DNA from: an uncultured bacterium
GTDB taxonomy: Bacteria; Planctomycetota; Phycisphaerae; Phycisphaerales; SM1A02
Direction of reading: 5' to 3'
Assembly (NCBI GenBank): GCA_903831295.1
Contig: CAIKXA010000051.1
Coordinates: 1-64,000, forward strand
Length of the DNA: 64,000 nucleotides
This document shows positions 45,321 to 54,764 of the stretch, one piece after another. The notes under the pieces are model-generated. The model saw only the letters and a list, made by a program, of their open reading frames with translations, was not told the origin of the DNA and did not search any database. The translations under genes and the position numbers were made by a program. Within the stretch, counting starts at the first letter, position 1, and every line of letters begins with the position of its first letter.

Positions 45321-46268
45321 TTATTTATTCGCTCCTTGGCCCGATTGACCCCAAGAAGATTTCTGAGCTGGTTGCGGAATTCCTTTGGCGTCCACAGGCG
45401 AATCAAGATCCATCATGTGAAACGGCGCCTTGTTCATGTCGGTCACAAAGGTGGTGCTGCCCGAAAGACTTGCGCGAAGCGTGTCAAGCCACGCTAAGAA
45501 AATGGCAAGGTCTGCCTCTTTTTTCATCTGCTCGTAATAACGAGTGGCCTCCGTGTTTCCAACCGCTTCGATTTCTGCGGCCCACTGCTCGGCAAAATTA
45601 CGGATGGTGTCCGCCTGACTGGCTGCCATGCTTTTAATTGCGTCCGCCTCGGCTTGACCGCGGCTTTCCTCTAGGTTGGCCAATGTTTCTTGGACAGCGC
45701 TCATGCGCTTCACCACGGCGATCGTGGTTTTAGGTGGCAAAACAACTTGGCTTAAACCCACTGTGACAGGCTCCACTCCAACCATTGGATTGCGCTTGAT
45801 ATCAGCCAAAAGCGATGTTTCCGCGTCGGGCAACCGGCTCTTTGAACCAATCAAATCGGTGAAAGAAAACTGTCCCACCGAGCCTCGAATGCTGGCGTTC
45901 AGGCGGGTCTCTAACTCCTTGCTTGCGGCGTCAAGATTTCCGTAGCCGTTGTAAAAAGCCAAGGGCGCGTCGCCAACTGAATTTACGCGCCACAACAGAA
46001 ATGCCTTGACCACCACTTGCTGGCCATCTTTTGTCAAAACGGTTTCCATGTTGCTTTCAGAAAGTTGAAGCCGCGTGTCCAACTTTGCAACTTGATCAAT
46101 GAAGAACGGCGCCTTGAAGTGCAAGCCAGCCTCGCGAACAATGCCCGCTGGTTTTCCAAAGCGCGTTGCCACAGCCACCTCGTGATAATTCACGGTGTAC
46201 GTGGTGTTGAACAAAGTCAGAACCAACAAGATGAACGCGCCAGCGGCAATGGGAAGAGTCTTTGACAT
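45321..46268 (-). CDS. SPFH/band 7 protein, HflC-like
   Basis: 315 residues. One N-terminal membrane segment (about 5-22) precedes YTVNYHEVAVATRFGKP, REAGLHFKAPFFIDQVAKLDTRL, DGQQVVVKAFLLWRV, and the long helix RGQAEADAIKSMAASQADTI that is typical of HflC, including AIFLAWLDTLRASLSGSTTFV near the end. It should form a hetero-oligomer with the neighbouring HflK-like proteins. It ends directly before the next SPFH gene with no intergenic gap. Confidence 0.92.
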   Translation of the reverse strand: MSKTLPIAAGAFILLVLTLFNTTYTVNYHEVAVATRFGKPAGIVREAGLHFKAPFFIDQVAKLDTRLQLSESNMETVLTKDGQQVVVKAFLLWRVNSVGDAPLAFYNGYGNLDAASKELETRLNASIRGSVGQFSFTDLIGSKSRLPDAETSLLADIKRNPMVGVEPVTVGLSQVVLPPKTTIAVVKRMSAVQETLANLEESRGQAEADAIKSMAASQADTIRNFAEQWAAEIEAVGNTEATRYYEQMKKEADLAIFLAWLDTLRASLSGSTTFVTDMNKAPFHMMDLDSPVDAKGIPQPAQKSSWGQSGQGANK

Positions 46269-46284
46269 GGTTTAAGTTCCTACG

Positions 46285-48444
46285 TTACTGATCCGATTTT
46301 TTTTCCACATAATCAGCCAAGTTGAATCCAACTTCTGGCTGTTGCATTTGAATATCCACACGAATGCGATTGGGATCGATGCCCAAAACATATTTTTGAC
46401 GGACATTGGAAAGACTTTGCGACAAGACCTCCATGAGCTTGCGCTGCATGAATAATTCTGGCGCCATGTGATACGCGCCCGCCTGCCCAAGCACTTCACT
46501 TGCGGTCTTTCGCGCCTCCAAATGCAATTCCCAGCGGCGCGCGCGGGATCGCTTGATCTGCGTGGCAATCTGGCCGCGCGTGGACACCAATATATTTTCA
46601 ACAGCCAAGCGCGCGGCCACTGTCTCCGGCGCCGCTTCACCCTTTGCTCGTTGCGTCACCCGCCACAATTCAATCGCGTCCACGGCTTGCGCGGCCAATC
46701 TGGCGTCACCAAGCAACGCGGCCATGGTGGTGTTCACAATTCGCTGCGCTTCTTCTTTTACTTTGCGCGCGTTCTGCGTGTCCATAGAAAGTTCCTCGTA
46801 CATCGCCGCCGATTCACCTGGCGGTCGCAACGCTGGAATTTGCACGCTAACCACTTCCACGCCAGTTCCCTCTTTATCAAACGTGCCTTGAATGCGCTCG
46901 CGCAACGCGGTGGCCAACGCCGCACCACTGGGACTGAGAACTTCATCAAGCGGACGAGTGGAAAGATATTGACACACATCCCGCCGCGACATTTCGCGCA
47001 AAATAACTTCGCGCATTTCGTAACCCACTCGGCGTACCTTGGCGTCGCTGGCAAAATTCAGCCAAGACAAAAGTCCATCGGGTTTAATCCGCCAAATCAA
47101 AACCAAGTCGGCGTCCACAAGCGCAAAACGATCGCTGATTCCGCGGGCGGCCGCGTCGGCGTTCACATCCGCGCTATTTGCGGGAGACATTGGATCTAAA
47201 ACCAACGCGGCTTCGCTACCGGTTCCAAGATCCCGCTGCACTTCCACAGCAAGTTTGGGGGCCGCCACCAAATAGGCCGCGCGCTGATTTTCCGTATCGG
47301 GGGAGTCGCCCCATAAATTCACCCTGCCAATTTTCATGTTGCTGGTTTGCAAAGGCAAGGCGTGAACTTGGGCTATATCAACTACTTCTGCGGTTTCAAA
47401 TGGCCAAGGCAATTTCCACATGAGTTCGCCTTGATGCACGCGACCCGCGATGGATCCGCCACGAAGCCGAACCGCTTGCTCGCCAGGACCCACAACAACA
47501 ATGCAACTCAGCGCAAGAAGCGCCACAAGACCAATCGCCACAAGCGCCCCGCTGCTTCGAAGCAAAAGTTTGTAGCCCCAACTTGAAGTGATGTCGAATC
47601 CAAACTGATAGTTGACGGCCTCATTGATGCCGCGAACTAAATTATCCGGAGCGGCGAGCAATCCCAGAACGCGGCTGTCAAATGCGGGACGCGGAATTTC
47701 ATTGGCCCGTCGCGGGCGATACAAATTCAAAGTCCAGTTCAGGAAAATTTCCACAGCTAGAGCAACTTGGAATCCGGCGATACCCAGCGCCATCCATTCG
47801 ATCACGATCGGCCGCTGAAATACGTGAAAAACAATTCCAACCGCAGTGGCGAGCATCACCAACGCGCTGCTGACCATGAATCCAGCGCCGCCACGTAAAT
47901 TCTGCCACGCAAATTGCTTTGACATTCCCGCGACAAATCGCGCGAAAATAAACGCAACAAGCGCCAATCCAATGCACACCGCAAGTTGCCAACCCAATGA
48001 AGATCCAACCGCAAACGCCACTCCATCTGGTCCGGGATCTTGCATATCGCGCAACCGCGACCAATTCCACATGCCCAATCCAAACAACAACAACGCCACC
48101 GACAAACTCACCAAAGGCATCAACCAACGATGCATTTGGCCAAGTCGACGCGCCGAGGCTTCTTGATCCAAAGCCGAAGTTTGAAAAATTGTTTCGCCAC
48201 GTGACTGAGCAAGCTCCTCGCGTTCGAGTGATTCAAGCCGCTCCAGTCGATGTTGATGAAACACCACGGCCAACGCCGCCCACACTGGCAGTCCGCACAG
48301 CACAGCGGTGGACGCCACGACCAATGTGGTGTCTCCCGCAAGCCGTCCGAAAACCAAAAGCACAATGCCTGTCAAGCATTGCAATGCAAAGCCAAGAACC
48401 GAAACACGGCTGGCTTGTTGATAAGAAAAATGATCTATTCTCAT
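46285..48444 (-). CDS. Large polytopic SPFH protein with seven membrane helices
   Basis: 719 residues. Six hydrophobic helices fill the N-terminal part (about 14-33, 41-61, 107-125, 147-170, 189-208 and 214-236). A seventh (299-319) leads straight into an HflK-type SPFH domain (VVVGPGEQAVRLRGG from about 317, then GELMWKLPWPFE and VDADLVLIWRIKPDGLLSW). A long helix follows (about 560-660, for example ARKVKEEAQRIVNTTMAALLGDARLA). Usual HflK has a single membrane helix and about 400 residues, so the polytopic N-terminus is an added domain of unknown role. It is the first gene of the three-SPFH set. Confidence 0.85.
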   Translation of the reverse strand: MRIDHFSYQQASRVSVLGFALQCLTGIVLLVFGRLAGDTTLVVASTAVLCGLPVWAALAVVFHQHRLERLESLEREELAQSRGETIFQTSALDQEASARRLGQMHRWLMPLVSLSVALLLFGLGMWNWSRLRDMQDPGPDGVAFAVGSSLGWQLAVCIGLALVAFIFARFVAGMSKQFAWQNLRGGAGFMVSSALVMLATAVGIVFHVFQRPIVIEWMALGIAGFQVALAVEIFLNWTLNLYRPRRANEIPRPAFDSRVLGLLAAPDNLVRGINEAVNYQFGFDITSSWGYKLLLRSSGALVAIGLVALLALSCIVVVGPGEQAVRLRGGSIAGRVHQGELMWKLPWPFETAEVVDIAQVHALPLQTSNMKIGRVNLWGDSPDTENQRAAYLVAAPKLAVEVQRDLGTGSEAALVLDPMSPANSADVNADAAARGISDRFALVDADLVLIWRIKPDGLLSWLNFASDAKVRRVGYEMREVILREMSRRDVCQYLSTRPLDEVLSPSGAALATALRERIQGTFDKEGTGVEVVSVQIPALRPPGESAAMYEELSMDTQNARKVKEEAQRIVNTTMAALLGDARLAAQAVDAIELWRVTQRAKGEAAPETVAARLAVENILVSTRGQIATQIKRSRARRWELHLEARKTASEVLGQAGAYHMAPELFMQRKLMEVLSQSLSNVRQKYVLGIDPNRIRVDIQMQQPEVGFNLADYVEKKSDQ

Positions 48445-50343: not shown

Positions 50344-51531
50344 TCAGTTTTTCTTTTTCAACGCGGCCAACTGCTGGTCGTAATCCTTCTTCAACCGCTC
50401 AAAGGCTTGGCGAACAATTGGAGCTTTCACTTTTGCTTTTTGAAAGCCAACAAAAAGATCTTCATATTGCTGCGCTTCTGGAGGAATCATCGGACCGCCA
50501 CCCTCGTAGCCCATAGCCACGGGCTCGCATTTTTCCCAAATCCGCAACATTTCATCAAGCAATTTTTTTCGGGCTTGAATTTGAGCAATTTGTCCTTGGC
50601 TTGAGCCTTTGATTTCCCATTCGGTCATGAGTTTGGAGGACGCTTTTTTAGAGTCAGTGACTGTCTTCTCCCAGGCATCTCCAACTTTCTTGCCGTTGGG
50701 ATTGACCACATATGAATTTGGCTTCAACTGCATGATGTTGAAAAGTTCCGCCTCCGTGTCGGCGGTCCCTTGTGAGAAACCGCAAGCAAGCGCCACGTCC
50801 TCGGTGAATGTCAGGTTGTCTTTGTCATCGCTCAACATCACTTCGCCGCTGTCGTTGTCAAAGAACGTAACCTTGCCGGACTTGGGGTCCTTGGTGTAAC
50901 TCACAACAAGCGGTGAATACACCATGCAACGACCCACTTGACGATTGCGACCGGCATCGGCGGAGACATCTCCAACACGCTCAATCCAAGCCTCCAATTC
51001 CTTGCCTTGCGCGCTCTTGTCGCCCGAGAACATGGTGATGGAACCAAGCGATCCCGTCTTCATGAAATAAATTTCGCGGCAGTGCATGGCGGTGAAAGCC
51101 GCGCCGGAAATCGCCTCCTCGATCCAAGCCACCACTCGATGCTTGTCGCGCATGCGGCTTAATGTGATGCCGATTTCATCGCCCTCCGTCACCAATCCGC
51201 CACCTGAGTTGATTCGGATCACGATGATTTGGCCGGGACCAAATTTGTCGGCCTCCTTCTCTATTTTTTCCATTTCTTGATGGCGCAAGCCAACACCCAC
51301 CATTCCGCTTAGAGGCAATATGAATACTTGTCGGCGCGAGTCTTTTTCGACCGCGCCTGGTTTGGTTGAGTCGGTCTTGGAATTTGCGGCGGCATCAGTC
51401 GCTGGCTTTGAGGCCGGAGTGGCGGGCGCCTTGCTGGGATCTGAACCAGCGGGAGTTGCGGGGTTGGCTTGAGCCAAAGCAATGTTTGACAGAACTGTTA
51501 CCGCGAACAATGTTGTGACAAAATATTTCAT
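50344..51531 (-). CDS. Exported ClpP/NfeD-type serine protease-like protein
   Basis: 395 residues. A signal peptide (about 1-20, ending IALA) is followed by an Ala/Pro/Thr-rich linker (21-60) and a ClpP/crotonase-fold domain. The oxyanion strand is IRINSGGGL (105-113) and the nucleophile region is EEAISGAAFTAMHC, with Ser142 where NfeD/ClpP-class membrane proteases have theirs. IYFMKTGSLGSITMF fits the strand that carries the base residue. The C-terminal about 130 residues form a charged helical domain ending in KKK. It may cut membrane or periplasmic proteins. It directly follows a paralogue at 51560-52678. Confidence 0.82.
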   Translation of the reverse strand: MKYFVTTLFAVTVLSNIALAQANPATPAGSDPSKAPATPASKPATDAAANSKTDSTKPGAVEKDSRRQVFILPLSGMVGVGLRHQEMEKIEKEADKFGPGQIIVIRINSGGGLVTEGDEIGITLSRMRDKHRVVAWIEEAISGAAFTAMHCREIYFMKTGSLGSITMFSGDKSAQGKELEAWIERVGDVSADAGRNRQVGRCMVYSPLVVSYTKDPKSGKVTFFDNDSGEVMLSDDKDNLTFTEDVALACGFSQGTADTEAELFNIMQLKPNSYVVNPNGKKVGDAWEKTVTDSKKASSKLMTEWEIKGSSQGQIAQIQARKKLLDEMLRIWEKCEPVAMGYEGGGPMIPPEAQQYEDLFVGFQKAKVKAPIVRQAFERLKKDYDQQLAALKKKN

Positions 51532-51559
51532 GATTCATTTCCTTCAAACTGTGTGTCAA

Positions 51560-52678
51560 TTACCTGCCGCCCAAACCACCACCGCCGCCAGAACCTGATT
51601 TACTTTTTTCCTTCAATTCAAGCAGCAACTTTTCCACGGCATCCAGGCTTACACCTCGCTCTGTTTTCCAACGGAATTCCACGGCGGGATATTTTTTCAT
51701 CGCATCGCGGACCCGTTCGAGGGCTTGCTTGGCGGAGTTCATTTTTTTAGGATCCGAGGAATATTTCTCGTATTCACCGAATGATTCCAATGATTTTGCG
51801 AACGCCTTGCGCCAATCAATGATGTAGTCGCCAACAATTTTGGTTCCATCCTTGTTGTTTTTGCACAACGAATCATCCCATTCGCGGTATCCAAGCAGGA
51901 ACATGAGATCCTCTACGCTGTCGGCGATGCCGTCGCACAAACCCAAATCCTCAGCGGTCTTGGCATCAAAATTAGCGACCACGAGTTCATCGCCGTCCAC
52001 CAAAAATGTTCCTTTGGTGTCATCGCGCCACATAAGATTGCGGCCGCTCCAAGAAACACTGAGCGTCTTTTCTGGACGCATCATGGCGAGCCCGAGTTCG
52101 GGCGGATAGCCGCCGCGACGCAAGAAACCATTGGCAATACCGGTCACGGCGGCGAGAAATTTGCGCACCACTTCGGGATCTGGATGCCTTGCAAGCTCCA
52201 TCACGCGCGACATGCCCCACAAACGCGCGTTGCTTGTCATATACAGATCTGGCCACGCCATCGCGATCACCGTGCTGAATCCAACCGAATCTTTCACCCA
52301 CATCACTTGCGGGATGTCGGCCAAGTCCAACTTCAACAAGTCGACCATTTTTCTGGCGTCTTCAAAATCAATACGGCCTTTCTCGGATCGATCATCATTT
52401 CCCAAATAAGTTTTTCCAGTTTTTCCGTCGGCGCTCTCCATTTGAAAAATAATCAGGTCAGGTTTTTTTTCCTTGACATCCTTGGCGACTTTTTCATAAA
52501 TGCTCAGACGAATGTCGCTGCCGATTTGTCCATTTCCATCAAGCCCCATGGGAATCACGTAGATTTTTGGAGCCTTGGATGGATCCTTCTGATTCATTTG
52601 CAAAGGCGATAGCGAGTCGGCGGCGAAAGCCAACGTTGCCATCAACAGCATTCCAACAAGAAGAGCGGTGCGTTTCAT
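51560..52678 (-). CDS. Exported ClpP-fold protein with degenerate active site
   Basis: 372 residues. It has a signal peptide (1-20) and then a domain that aligns in order with the neighbouring protease-like protein: KIYVIPMGLDGNGQIGSDI, LIIFQMESADG in place of the INSGGG strand, and VKDSVGFSTVIAMAWPDLYM in place of the Ser142 segment, where Gly133 stands at the nucleophile position. The C-terminal half is helical and the tail is Gly/Ser-rich. It may be a non-catalytic partner of the neighbour, or it may use a different residue. They are read in the order this gene, then the active-looking one, 28 bases apart. Confidence 0.7.
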   Translation of the reverse strand: MKRTALLVGMLLMATLAFAADSLSPLQMNQKDPSKAPKIYVIPMGLDGNGQIGSDIRLSIYEKVAKDVKEKKPDLIIFQMESADGKTGKTYLGNDDRSEKGRIDFEDARKMVDLLKLDLADIPQVMWVKDSVGFSTVIAMAWPDLYMTSNARLWGMSRVMELARHPDPEVVRKFLAAVTGIANGFLRRGGYPPELGLAMMRPEKTLSVSWSGRNLMWRDDTKGTFLVDGDELVVANFDAKTAEDLGLCDGIADSVEDLMFLLGYREWDDSLCKNNKDGTKIVGDYIIDWRKAFAKSLESFGEYEKYSSDPKKMNSAKQALERVRDAMKKYPAVEFRWKTERGVSLDAVEKLLLELKEKSKSGSGGGGGLGGR

Positions 52679-52696: not shown

Positions 52697-53971
52697 TCAA
52701 GTGCGGGAAAGTTGCCTTGCCAAATCAGTCGCAGCCTTCTTGGATTCAATCGATCCTTCCAGTTGGGCGTCGTATACGGCGTCCAGGATCACGCGAAATT
52801 CGGGACCAGCGCGTAAACCCATGGCGAGCAAGTCGTCGCCGCACAACAACGGAGTTGGGGCAATTCCCTCTATTTCAAGTTGCGCATAGTCGCCCAGAAT
52901 GCGTTGCACCAATTCAGGCGCATCCGTGGCGTGAACGCGCAGCGCCGCGTGGAATGACGGGTTCGCCGCCGTTCTTTTTCTTTGGGCCTTTGAAAAGGCG
53001 GGCCATTCGGGCACGCGCGTCAACAAAAACAATGTGCTTGTAAGCGTATCGCGTTCCTTGTTGGAAAGAACCAGCGCGCTGGTCCATTGAGAAACGCGTT
53101 CTTGCCAAGGCAGCGTGGACTCCCGGTCAAGAAGCCATGCGCTCAGAAATGTGGCCAGCAGTTGCGTGGAAATCTCATGCGCATTGTGCGCAAGAATTGG
53201 CGAAGGCAACGATACTTGCTGAAGCGCGCGTACTCGTCGCAGCAAAGTTGGCGGCGCAATTTCAAGCAACGCGCTTGACGCGAGTCCCAAAGATTCGATC
53301 AGTTCAATGGCTTTCACGCGGCTTGCATGCGCGATCATGCGGCGCAATTCTTGCCCCACGCGTTCGCGGCTCACGCCACGAAGTTCATTGGCATGCGCGC
53401 GGATGGCGGCCATGGTTTTAGGTTCGATGGTCAATTCAAAGCGCGCCGCAAAACGCACCGCTCGCAGCAAGCGCAACCGATCCTCGCTCAGACGCGCGTC
53501 TGGATCATTGATGGCGCGCAATGTTTTAGTCTCAAGATCTTGCTTGCCGCGCACGTGATCAATCAGTTTTCCCGTGGCGGGATCCATGAAGATTCCATTG
53601 ATGGTGAAATCGCGCCGATTGGCGTCGGTGATTTCATCGCCCATTTGAATGTCCTGGGGGCGACGGCCATCAACATAGCGGCCGTCGGCGCGGAAACTGG
53701 CCACTTCAACAACGCGCCCTTTGTGATGCACAAGAATCACGCCAAAACTTTCACCCACGCCGCGCGCCTTGGGAAATATGGCGCGGATTTGCTCGGTGGT
53801 GGCACTGGTGGCAATGTCGTAATCGGTGGGCGAAAGATTGAGCAATTCATCGCGCACACAACCACCCGCGAAATACGCGGTGAATCCGGCCGCGGAAAAT
53901 TTTGCGGCGATTTCCGCGGCGGCGTCCCGCGCGCTGGTGCTTGAACCACTGAAATGATTCGCGTCAGCCAT
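52697..53971 (-). CDS. cca: CCA tRNA nucleotidyltransferase
   Basis: 424 residues from the ATG at 53971, which overlaps the plsC stop by 8 bases; a longer frame reaches into plsC but has no family match. The head domain is FAGGCVRDELLNLSPTDYDIAT, with the G-G and D-x-D catalytic residues, then FRADGRYVDGRRP, RRDFTINGIFMDP and EDRLRLLRAVRFAARF, all diagnostic for class II enzymes. The C-terminal half is the helical body. It adds CCA to tRNA 3' ends, which is needed here because none of the three tRNA genes encodes it. It could also act as a poly(A) polymerase, a related activity not separable by sequence. Confidence 0.93.
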   Translation of the reverse strand: MADANHFSGSSTSARDAAAEIAAKFSAAGFTAYFAGGCVRDELLNLSPTDYDIATSATTEQIRAIFPKARGVGESFGVILVHHKGRVVEVASFRADGRYVDGRRPQDIQMGDEITDANRRDFTINGIFMDPATGKLIDHVRGKQDLETKTLRAINDPDARLSEDRLRLLRAVRFAARFELTIEPKTMAAIRAHANELRGVSRERVGQELRRMIAHASRVKAIELIESLGLASSALLEIAPPTLLRRVRALQQVSLPSPILAHNAHEISTQLLATFLSAWLLDRESTLPWQERVSQWTSALVLSNKERDTLTSTLFLLTRVPEWPAFSKAQRKRTAANPSFHAALRVHATDAPELVQRILGDYAQLEIEGIAPTPLLCGDDLLAMGLRAGPEFRVILDAVYDAQLEGSIESKKAATDLARQLSRT

Positions 53972-54764
53972 GAGCGTTGCTGGAAGAAATGTTCTGCGGG
54001 CTTGGAGGGCGATGATGCGTTGCGCTGTCTGGCACATTGGCCTGCGTTGGCAAAAGCAATTGATCGCCTGGACCAACAGCGGGAAATCTTCCTTGTGTTG
54101 AGCGCCGAATGGATTCGCGGCGATTCATGCGCAAGCGATCAACCGCTAGGCGCAACCGTTCAATACCGCCATCAGGATCGTTGATCAAAACTTCTGGATC
54201 GATCGGCTCGCCCGCTTCCACTTCAAGCCGCCCCGCGAAACGCGGCAACTTTTGCGAACTGGGCCAGATATCAAATCCACCTTCGAGCCCGATTGGAACC
54301 ACTGGAACTTTGGCGCGGCGAATCAACAGCGCAACGCCACGTTGGAATGGCGCAATGGCGCCGTCGTCGCAGCGGCCACCCTCTGGATAAATCAACAAGC
54401 AGCGCCCCTGCGCCAGAACTTGCAACGCGGCCTTGATTGCCGCGGAGTCGGATTTTTCTTTCAACGCAATCGCGTTGAAGGAACTGATCAACGCGCCAAA
54501 CCATTTGTTGTTGAACAGCGTGCTGCGCGCGATGTAGGCGGTCTGACGGTCATAGGCCACGGCCGCGTGCGGAATTGGATCAAGAAATGATTGATGATTT
54601 CCCACCAACAACACGCCGCCCGTGCGCGGAATATTGTGGGCGCCAACCACTTTCATTCCATAAAAGATCCTGGCCAATATTCCACAAAACAGCGCGATGA
54701 AATCCCACCACATGGCTTGGATAAATTTTCGGCCCGGCGCGCGCCGAGAAAAATCGTGGAACAT
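53964..54764 (-). CDS. plsC: 1-acyl-glycerol-3-phosphate acyltransferase PlsC
   Basis: 266 residues from the ATG at 54764, which overlaps the cmk stop (TAATG). It acylates lysophosphatidic acid at the inner membrane. Visible are the catalytic NHQSFLD (56-62, HX4D box), FNAIALKEKSDSAAIKAAL, YPEGGRCDDG (EGTRS-type box) and PVVPIGLEGG. One or two hydrophobic segments near residues 22-37 would attach it to the membrane. The C-terminal 50 residues are longer than usual and basic or low in complexity. Confidence 0.9.
   Translation of the reverse strand: MFHDFSRRAPGRKFIQAMWWDFIALFCGILARIFYGMKVVGAHNIPRTGGVLLVGNHQSFLDPIPHAAVAYDRQTAYIARSTLFNNKWFGALISSFNAIALKEKSDSAAIKAALQVLAQGRCLLIYPEGGRCDDGAIAPFQRGVALLIRRAKVPVVPIGLEGGFDIWPSSQKLPRFAGRLEVEAGEPIDPEVLINDPDGGIERLRLAVDRLRMNRRESIRRSTQGRFPAVGPGDQLLLPTQANVPDSATHHRPPSPQNISSSNAHG

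Follow-up and report, generated by a model that had tools for sequence, protein, structure and literature searches.

A tandem pair of exported NfeD1b-type paralogs in Phycisphaerales that may divide a Ser-Lys protease dyad between two genes

Introduction

In ClpP, the Ser-His-Asp triad lies within one subunit, and ClpR is a ClpP-fold paralog without the nucleophile. SppA (protease IV; family S49; PDB 3bf0 and 3rst) has a Ser-Lys dyad; in the Escherichia coli enzyme, the Lys is in the N-terminal half and the Ser in the C-terminal half, and so in different domains, and in Bacillus subtilis SppA the Ser and Lys are contributed by neighbouring protomers. The formation of the SppA dyad in trans is said to have been described by Kim in 2008 and by Nam in 2012.

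A further relative is 1510-N, the protease domain of the Pyrococcus horikoshii STOPP/NfeD1b protein (PDB 2deo, 3bpp, 3viv, and 6m4b), which uses Ser97 and Lys138. PMC10153343 describes PH1510 as carrying, besides this domain, five membrane-spanning regions and an OB (NfeD) domain at the C terminus; the same text treats the 1510-N dimer as the unit that functions and has its two Ser97-Lys138 dyads face each other. As reported in PMC3795559, the S97A and K138A variants are each inactive, and each dimer accommodates a single peptide, which lies along the pseudo-two-fold axis; the residue 138 positions of the two subunits are very close together. How Lys138 approaches Ser97 is treated in that account as unsettled: lysine-lysine repulsion is proposed, and a structure for the second step is missing (PMC3795559). 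The usual operon partners of NfeD1b are given as SPFH proteins (PMC2636767).

Here, we describe two adjacent genes (A and B) of an uncultured planctomycete whose products belong to this group. An initial annotation had read them as an active and an inactive ClpP-like protein that might form a mixed oligomer. We found no description of the pair in the open-licence PMC literature, which is weak evidence of novelty.

Results

The window, that is, the whole 64,000-nucleotide stretch of DNA that was analysed, comes from a freshwater planctomycete whose close relatives include a Phycisphaerales MAG from Lake Baikal. The two exported ORFs that had been annotated are both present, head to tail on the minus strand with 28 bp between them; B is upstream and A is the second gene of the unit, and the protein previously called the first is therefore the product of the second gene. 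Their features are as follows.

51560 to 52678, minus strand: gene B, encoding an exported 372-aa protein of the ClpP/1510-N fold, the subunit that bears the Lys and lacks the nucleophile (from the ORF, the hhalign alignment to A, the fold match, and the Lys column)
52622 to 52678, minus strand: putative signal peptide of B (translation, by eye)
52424 to 52438, minus strand: ESADG of B (residues 81 to 85), at the place of the lost oxyanion GG loop (ORF and alignment)
52280 to 52282, minus strand: codon for Gly133 of B, in the nucleophile column (G in 66/78, S in 3/78)
52160 to 52162, minus strand: codon for Lys173 of B, which aligns with Lys138 of 1510-N (invariant, 78/78; 79/79 with locus L104 counted)
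50344 to 51531, minus strand: gene A, encoding an exported 395-aa protein with an NfeD1b_N domain, the subunit that bears the Ser (ORF, Pfam, and alignment)
51472 to 51531, minus strand: putative signal peptide of A (translation, by eye)
51196 to 51207, minus strand: SGGG of A (residues 109 to 112), oxyanion loop (GG in 76/76)
51106 to 51108, minus strand: codon of A Ser142, nucleophile (Ser in 76/76; 77/78 with locus L107 counted)
51001 to 51003, minus strand: codon for Lys177 of A, which occupies the base position (a Lys in no more than 4/76 A rows)

By eye, both N termini resemble signal peptides, as had been proposed, and the motif differences first seen by eye fall in the same alignment columns: N108, SGGG, and Ser142 of A are matched by E81, SADG, and Gly133 of B.

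Upstream of B is a gene (52697 to 54076) whose product resembles a CCA tRNA-nucleotidyltransferase by eye; related genes lie ahead of B at 38 of at most 76 loci. On the other side are two SPFH (Band 7) genes (45321 to 48444), one encoding a 719-aa protein whose N-terminal part, judged by eye, is long and hydrophobic, and these are separated from the A-B pair by an ABC-2 permease gene of opposite orientation; the SPFH pair lies downstream in 11 of at most 76 loci. We found the neighbouring genes uninformative about mechanism.

Gene A is readily classified. It matches Pfam NfeD1b_N over residues 68 to 236 (E 4e-15; 56.3 bits against a cutoff of 40), as do all 76 A sequences of our alignment (E of 0.01 or less). 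The same domain is matched by 41 of the 78 B sequences; the B of the window is not among these and gave no Pfam or NCBIfam match at an E value of 1 or less. Neither protein has a Pfam match to a C-terminal NfeD (OB) domain or to Peptidase_S49 at this threshold. As single sequences, A and B are only marginally similar by BLASTP (best E, 0.032), a single-sequence search with B found no relative in the PDB, and a PDB search with the B profile brought up nothing but helical proteins of different types (best E, 0.0034), so a fold search was needed. When the 76 A rows were compared with the 78 B rows by hhalign, the two profiles aligned over 275 columns with a probability of 100 and an E value of 1.9e-48. 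At the level of profiles, the homology of A and B is thus certain, and it is through this profile homology to A that B is assigned to the NfeD1b/1510-N type. The predicted structure of B alone (pLDDT 92.9, pTM 0.90) has the four 1510-N entries as its best PDB matches (6m4b: Z 17.2 over 179 residues, rmsd 2.6), with ClpP and SppA next in rank; 1510-N is also the best match (Z 21.6) of the A half of the joined model described below. The common fold that had been suspected is therefore borne out by both the profile comparison and the predicted structures.

Of 201 genomes sampled from the order, 128 gave a match to B and 170 a match to A, the weakest of these matches probably being other paralogs. 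In the family of the window, B was found in 64 and A in 61 of 67 genomes (read from tables), and where both were present they lay side by side on one contig in 58 of 61 genomes, so the two genes do occur together in relatives. The three nonadjacent cases comprise one genome in which each gene is at a contig end (G087), one in which they are on different contigs (G008), and one in which they are apart (G147). In G147, other genes stand beside B, and A is far away; in a further genome, G181, B is present and no A was found. In the genus concerned (loci L087 and L099), where A is unlinked (G147, locus L100) or not found (G181), B has a Ser at the nucleophile column together with the Lys and lacks the GG loop. 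We fetched 80 stretches, mostly because they matched both proteins; B is upstream of A on the same strand in 76/76 of the fetched loci that hold both (with a 4-bp overlap in five), a figure biased by that choice, and 58/61 is the fairer measure of linkage.

Together with the window, the fetched stretches gave 81 sources; 78 of them contributed a row to the A set and 79 to the B set. The A profile left out L107, which is A-like with no Ser, and the near-copy L104, and the B profile left out L104. To these, the joint alignment adds 24 rows of relatives outside the pair, which come from 20 loci (8 of the 24 from four tandem loci). In a maximum-likelihood tree built from 80 of its 178 rows (four outside rows, from L162 and L163, were left out), A, B, and the outside relatives form three groups with support of 99/96, 100/99, and 100/98. 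The same family blocks recur within A and within B, and they are joined to one another at different points in the two groups (the tree is unrooted). Such a pattern fits a single old tandem duplication followed by vertical inheritance, with opposite residues having been lost in the two copies. In close pairs, dN/dS is 0.08 to 0.12 for A and 0.12 to 0.15 for B (for B, the comparison with L064 was saturated and yielded no estimate), values that indicate strong purifying selection on both genes. The idea that B is a decaying gene was considered and is contradicted by its dN/dS of 0.12 to 0.15. The pairing of A with B is real, and it is old.

The joint alignment reveals how the catalytic residues are distributed. 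At the nucleophile column, Ser is found in 76/76 A rows, 3/78 B rows, and 23/24 outside rows; B has at this position (133) G in 66 rows, A in 7, S in 3, Q in 1, and V in 1. The Gly pair of the oxyanion loop is kept in all A (76/76) and outside (24/24) rows and is not conserved in B. At the general-base column, the picture is the reverse: Lys is present in all 78 B rows and in 19/24 outside rows, and in only 4/76 A rows, where R (18), E (16), A (10), L (6), Q (5), and others occur instead. Lys173 is the sole invariant column of the B alignment. Most outside relatives carry Ser and Lys together (19/24 rows), and four of the five outside rows without the base Lys are second copies of a different tandem pair. 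Counted per locus, A has the Ser and lacks the base Lys in 71 of 75 pairs, and B has the Lys in 75/75 and no Ser in 74/75. The four exceptions, in which A also has Lys177, are the window and L061, L062, and L063, and B Lys173 is kept in the same four. A Ser-Lys dyad within one chain is therefore absent from most A-B pairs, and the window's own A has both Ser142 and Lys177.

Two alignments anchor the register of the base column at A position 177: B Lys173 is placed there by hhalign, and the Lys numbered 124 in the 1510-N chain is placed there by HMMER. If the 1510-N chain starts with Met followed by residue 16, this Lys corresponds to residue 138, and with that numbering Ser97 falls on A Ser142. 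Any Lys within four columns of the base site was found in 28/76 A rows, and a shifted Lys may thus be available in part of the A sequences, though none is conserved; no His or Lys column of the A alignment is conserved in at least 85% of rows, and the lack of such a His column also speaks against a ClpP-type triad.

The check suggested earlier, whether the Ser loss in B is conserved in relatives, comes out positive in these counts (G in 66/78), and no shifted but intact dyad appeared in B, 75/78 rows having no Ser at the nucleophile column. The simple division into an active and an inactive protein is not supported, for the invariant Lys of B (78/78) occupies the base position that A has mostly given up (4/76). 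Since this Lys is invariant in B and absent from most A, we regard B as half an active site rather than an empty one.

Several single cases depart from the common pattern. The Lys177 of the window's A (51001 to 51003; 4/76 rows) is possibly a regain of the full dyad in A. L107 (5871 to 7274; G019) encodes an A-like single protein without the catalytic Ser. In L108 (5724 to 6758; G003), a third, A-like copy beside the pair has Gly for Ser and no base Lys (by eye), a double loss. In another family of the same class, L161 to L164 hold a different NfeD1b-like tandem pair, whose first copy has Ser and Lys in 4/4 and whose second copy has Asp at the Lys position in 4/4 and keeps the Ser in 3/4.

At 30 loci, B, the gap, and A can be read in one frame if stops are read as Gly. 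For AlphaFold2, we combined these read-through chains with single A and B rows in an alignment of 122 rows, from which four A rows misplaced by MAFFT (L101, L103, L105, and L106) had been dropped beforehand. The joined B-A model has a pLDDT of 88.1 and a pTM of 0.85, with low confidence at positions 340 to 350 and 356 to 406 (the linker) and 60 to 63. A pTM this high despite a loose linker would point to a defined B-A interface. On the strength of this model, a mixed A-B oligomer, as originally suggested, is likely; the ClpP/ClpR model of catalytic and dead subunits that came with the suggestion fits poorly with a Lys at the base position of B. Compared with E. coli SppA, the two halves of the model align in order over 346 to 364 residues (Z 14.1, rmsd 7.1), and Foldseek gave TM scores of 0.35 to 0.37 on the SppA target (3bf0), so that the whole does not superpose; with such an rmsd and TM, the parts are related and the halves are not placed exactly as in SppA.

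The A-B pair is not the only protein of its kind in the genome, since a full-length NfeD1b, in which both the Ser and the Lys motif can be recognised by eye, is encoded on contig C75 next to a second NfeD match; PF01957 is matched on this contig only. No Pfam match to S49/SppA was found in the window's genome, the assembly of which is 84% complete, and S49 was matched in 14/67 sampled genomes of the family (counted by hand) versus 130/134 sampled from the order's other families. A role of the pair as a replacement for SppA was entertained and, in its simple form, rejected: families f2 to f4 have the pair and S49 together.

Discussion

Our observations establish that the Ser and Lys of an NfeD1b-type dyad are partitioned between two linked genes of shared fold, both of them held by selection. 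With the nucleophile kept in A and the helper Lys in B, the halves are complementary, and the two proteins probably work as a pair. We think it reasonably probable that they constitute a heteromeric periplasmic Ser-Lys protease whose dyad is divided between B and A. A and B would then be diverged copies of one exported protease domain of the NfeD1b/1510-N type, assembling as heterodimers or as rings of heterodimers. At each B-A contact there would be one composite site, with Ser142 of A activated across the interface by Lys173 of B, and a single peptide would be cut per heterodimer. In most species, neither protein would presumably be active alone. By analogy with SppA and 1510-N, the substrates might be hydrophobic peptides left after secretion or the hydrophobic tails of membrane proteins, although this is a guess. 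Complex formation, catalysis across the interface, and the peptide nature of the substrates are what we infer from the residue pattern and the joined model. The stricter form, an obligate two-gene protease in which duplication split the dyad and left B with only the base and A with only the nucleophile, is one toward which we lean just slightly. Several points count against a divided dyad: the A proteins of the window and its three close relatives could hold a whole dyad by virtue of Lys177; 28/76 A rows have a Lys of some kind near the site; the halves of the joined model are not placed exactly as in SppA; A and B are far apart in G147, and G181 has B without a detected A; and the wording of PMC10153343, in which the 1510-N dyads face each other, fits a dyad inside each subunit.

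One alternative is that A is the sole protease and uses another base (a shifted Lys or something unusual), with B as a regulatory or scaffolding pseudoenzyme of the ClpP/ClpR sort. The absence of Ser and GG from B, and the Lys within four columns of the site in 28/76 A sequences, are what this reading would lead one to expect; nevertheless, we hold it to be unlikely, given that A has no column in which a His or Lys reaches 85% conservation and that an invariant Lys at the base position (78/78) would be needless in a mere scaffold. It is similarly improbable, we believe, that in the lineage of the window A is a complete Ser-Lys protease (Ser142 and Lys177) to which B is an accessory. Lys177 does align with 1510-N Lys138, and because it is present in the window, L061, L062, and L063, A alone may work there; set against this, it occurs in only 4/76 A rows, and B Lys173 has been retained in the same four loci. 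That the pair is not proteolytic at all and instead serves, on a dead ClpP-like scaffold, as a peptide binder or chaperone seems unlikely as well: although no single chain holds the full dyad in 71/75 locus pairs and neither protein has a known activity, conservation is highest at the Ser and GG of A and the Lys of B, a pattern for which there is no easy explanation other than catalysis.

If the preferred reading of one dyad shared by A and B is correct, this would be a natural catalytic dyad split between two genes and conserved over several bacterial families, and a "dead" paralog may on occasion carry half an active site. Conservation of the arrangement over several families of one order would further imply that the NfeD1b/1510-N dyad works across the dimer interface, and the partition between A and B leads us to predict that the Lys of 1510-N serves the Ser of the other subunit.

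How does the pair compare with the systems described so far? ClpP/ClpR and the mixed ClpP1P2 rings likewise combine paralogous ClpP-fold subunits, one of them (ClpR) without the nucleophile; in the A-B pair, however, the candidate base is a Lys, and it is located in the other subunit. SppA has a related fold (A half against 3rst, Z 15.1; B, Z 14.2), its Lys part precedes its Ser part just as B precedes A, and the way the residues are divided between B and A would suit a dyad made between domains or protomers, but the halves of A-B are separate genes and have no S49 Pfam match. With 1510-N, the pair shares the best fold match of both subunits (Z 21.6 for the A half and 17.2 for B) and the registers of both Ser and Lys; unlike A and B, which divide these residues between exported paralogs, each subunit of the 1510-N homodimer carries both of them, and full-length NfeD1b has the NfeD domain for which A and B gave no Pfam match. 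On these grounds, 1510-N and SppA are closer parallels to the A-B pair than is ClpP/ClpR.
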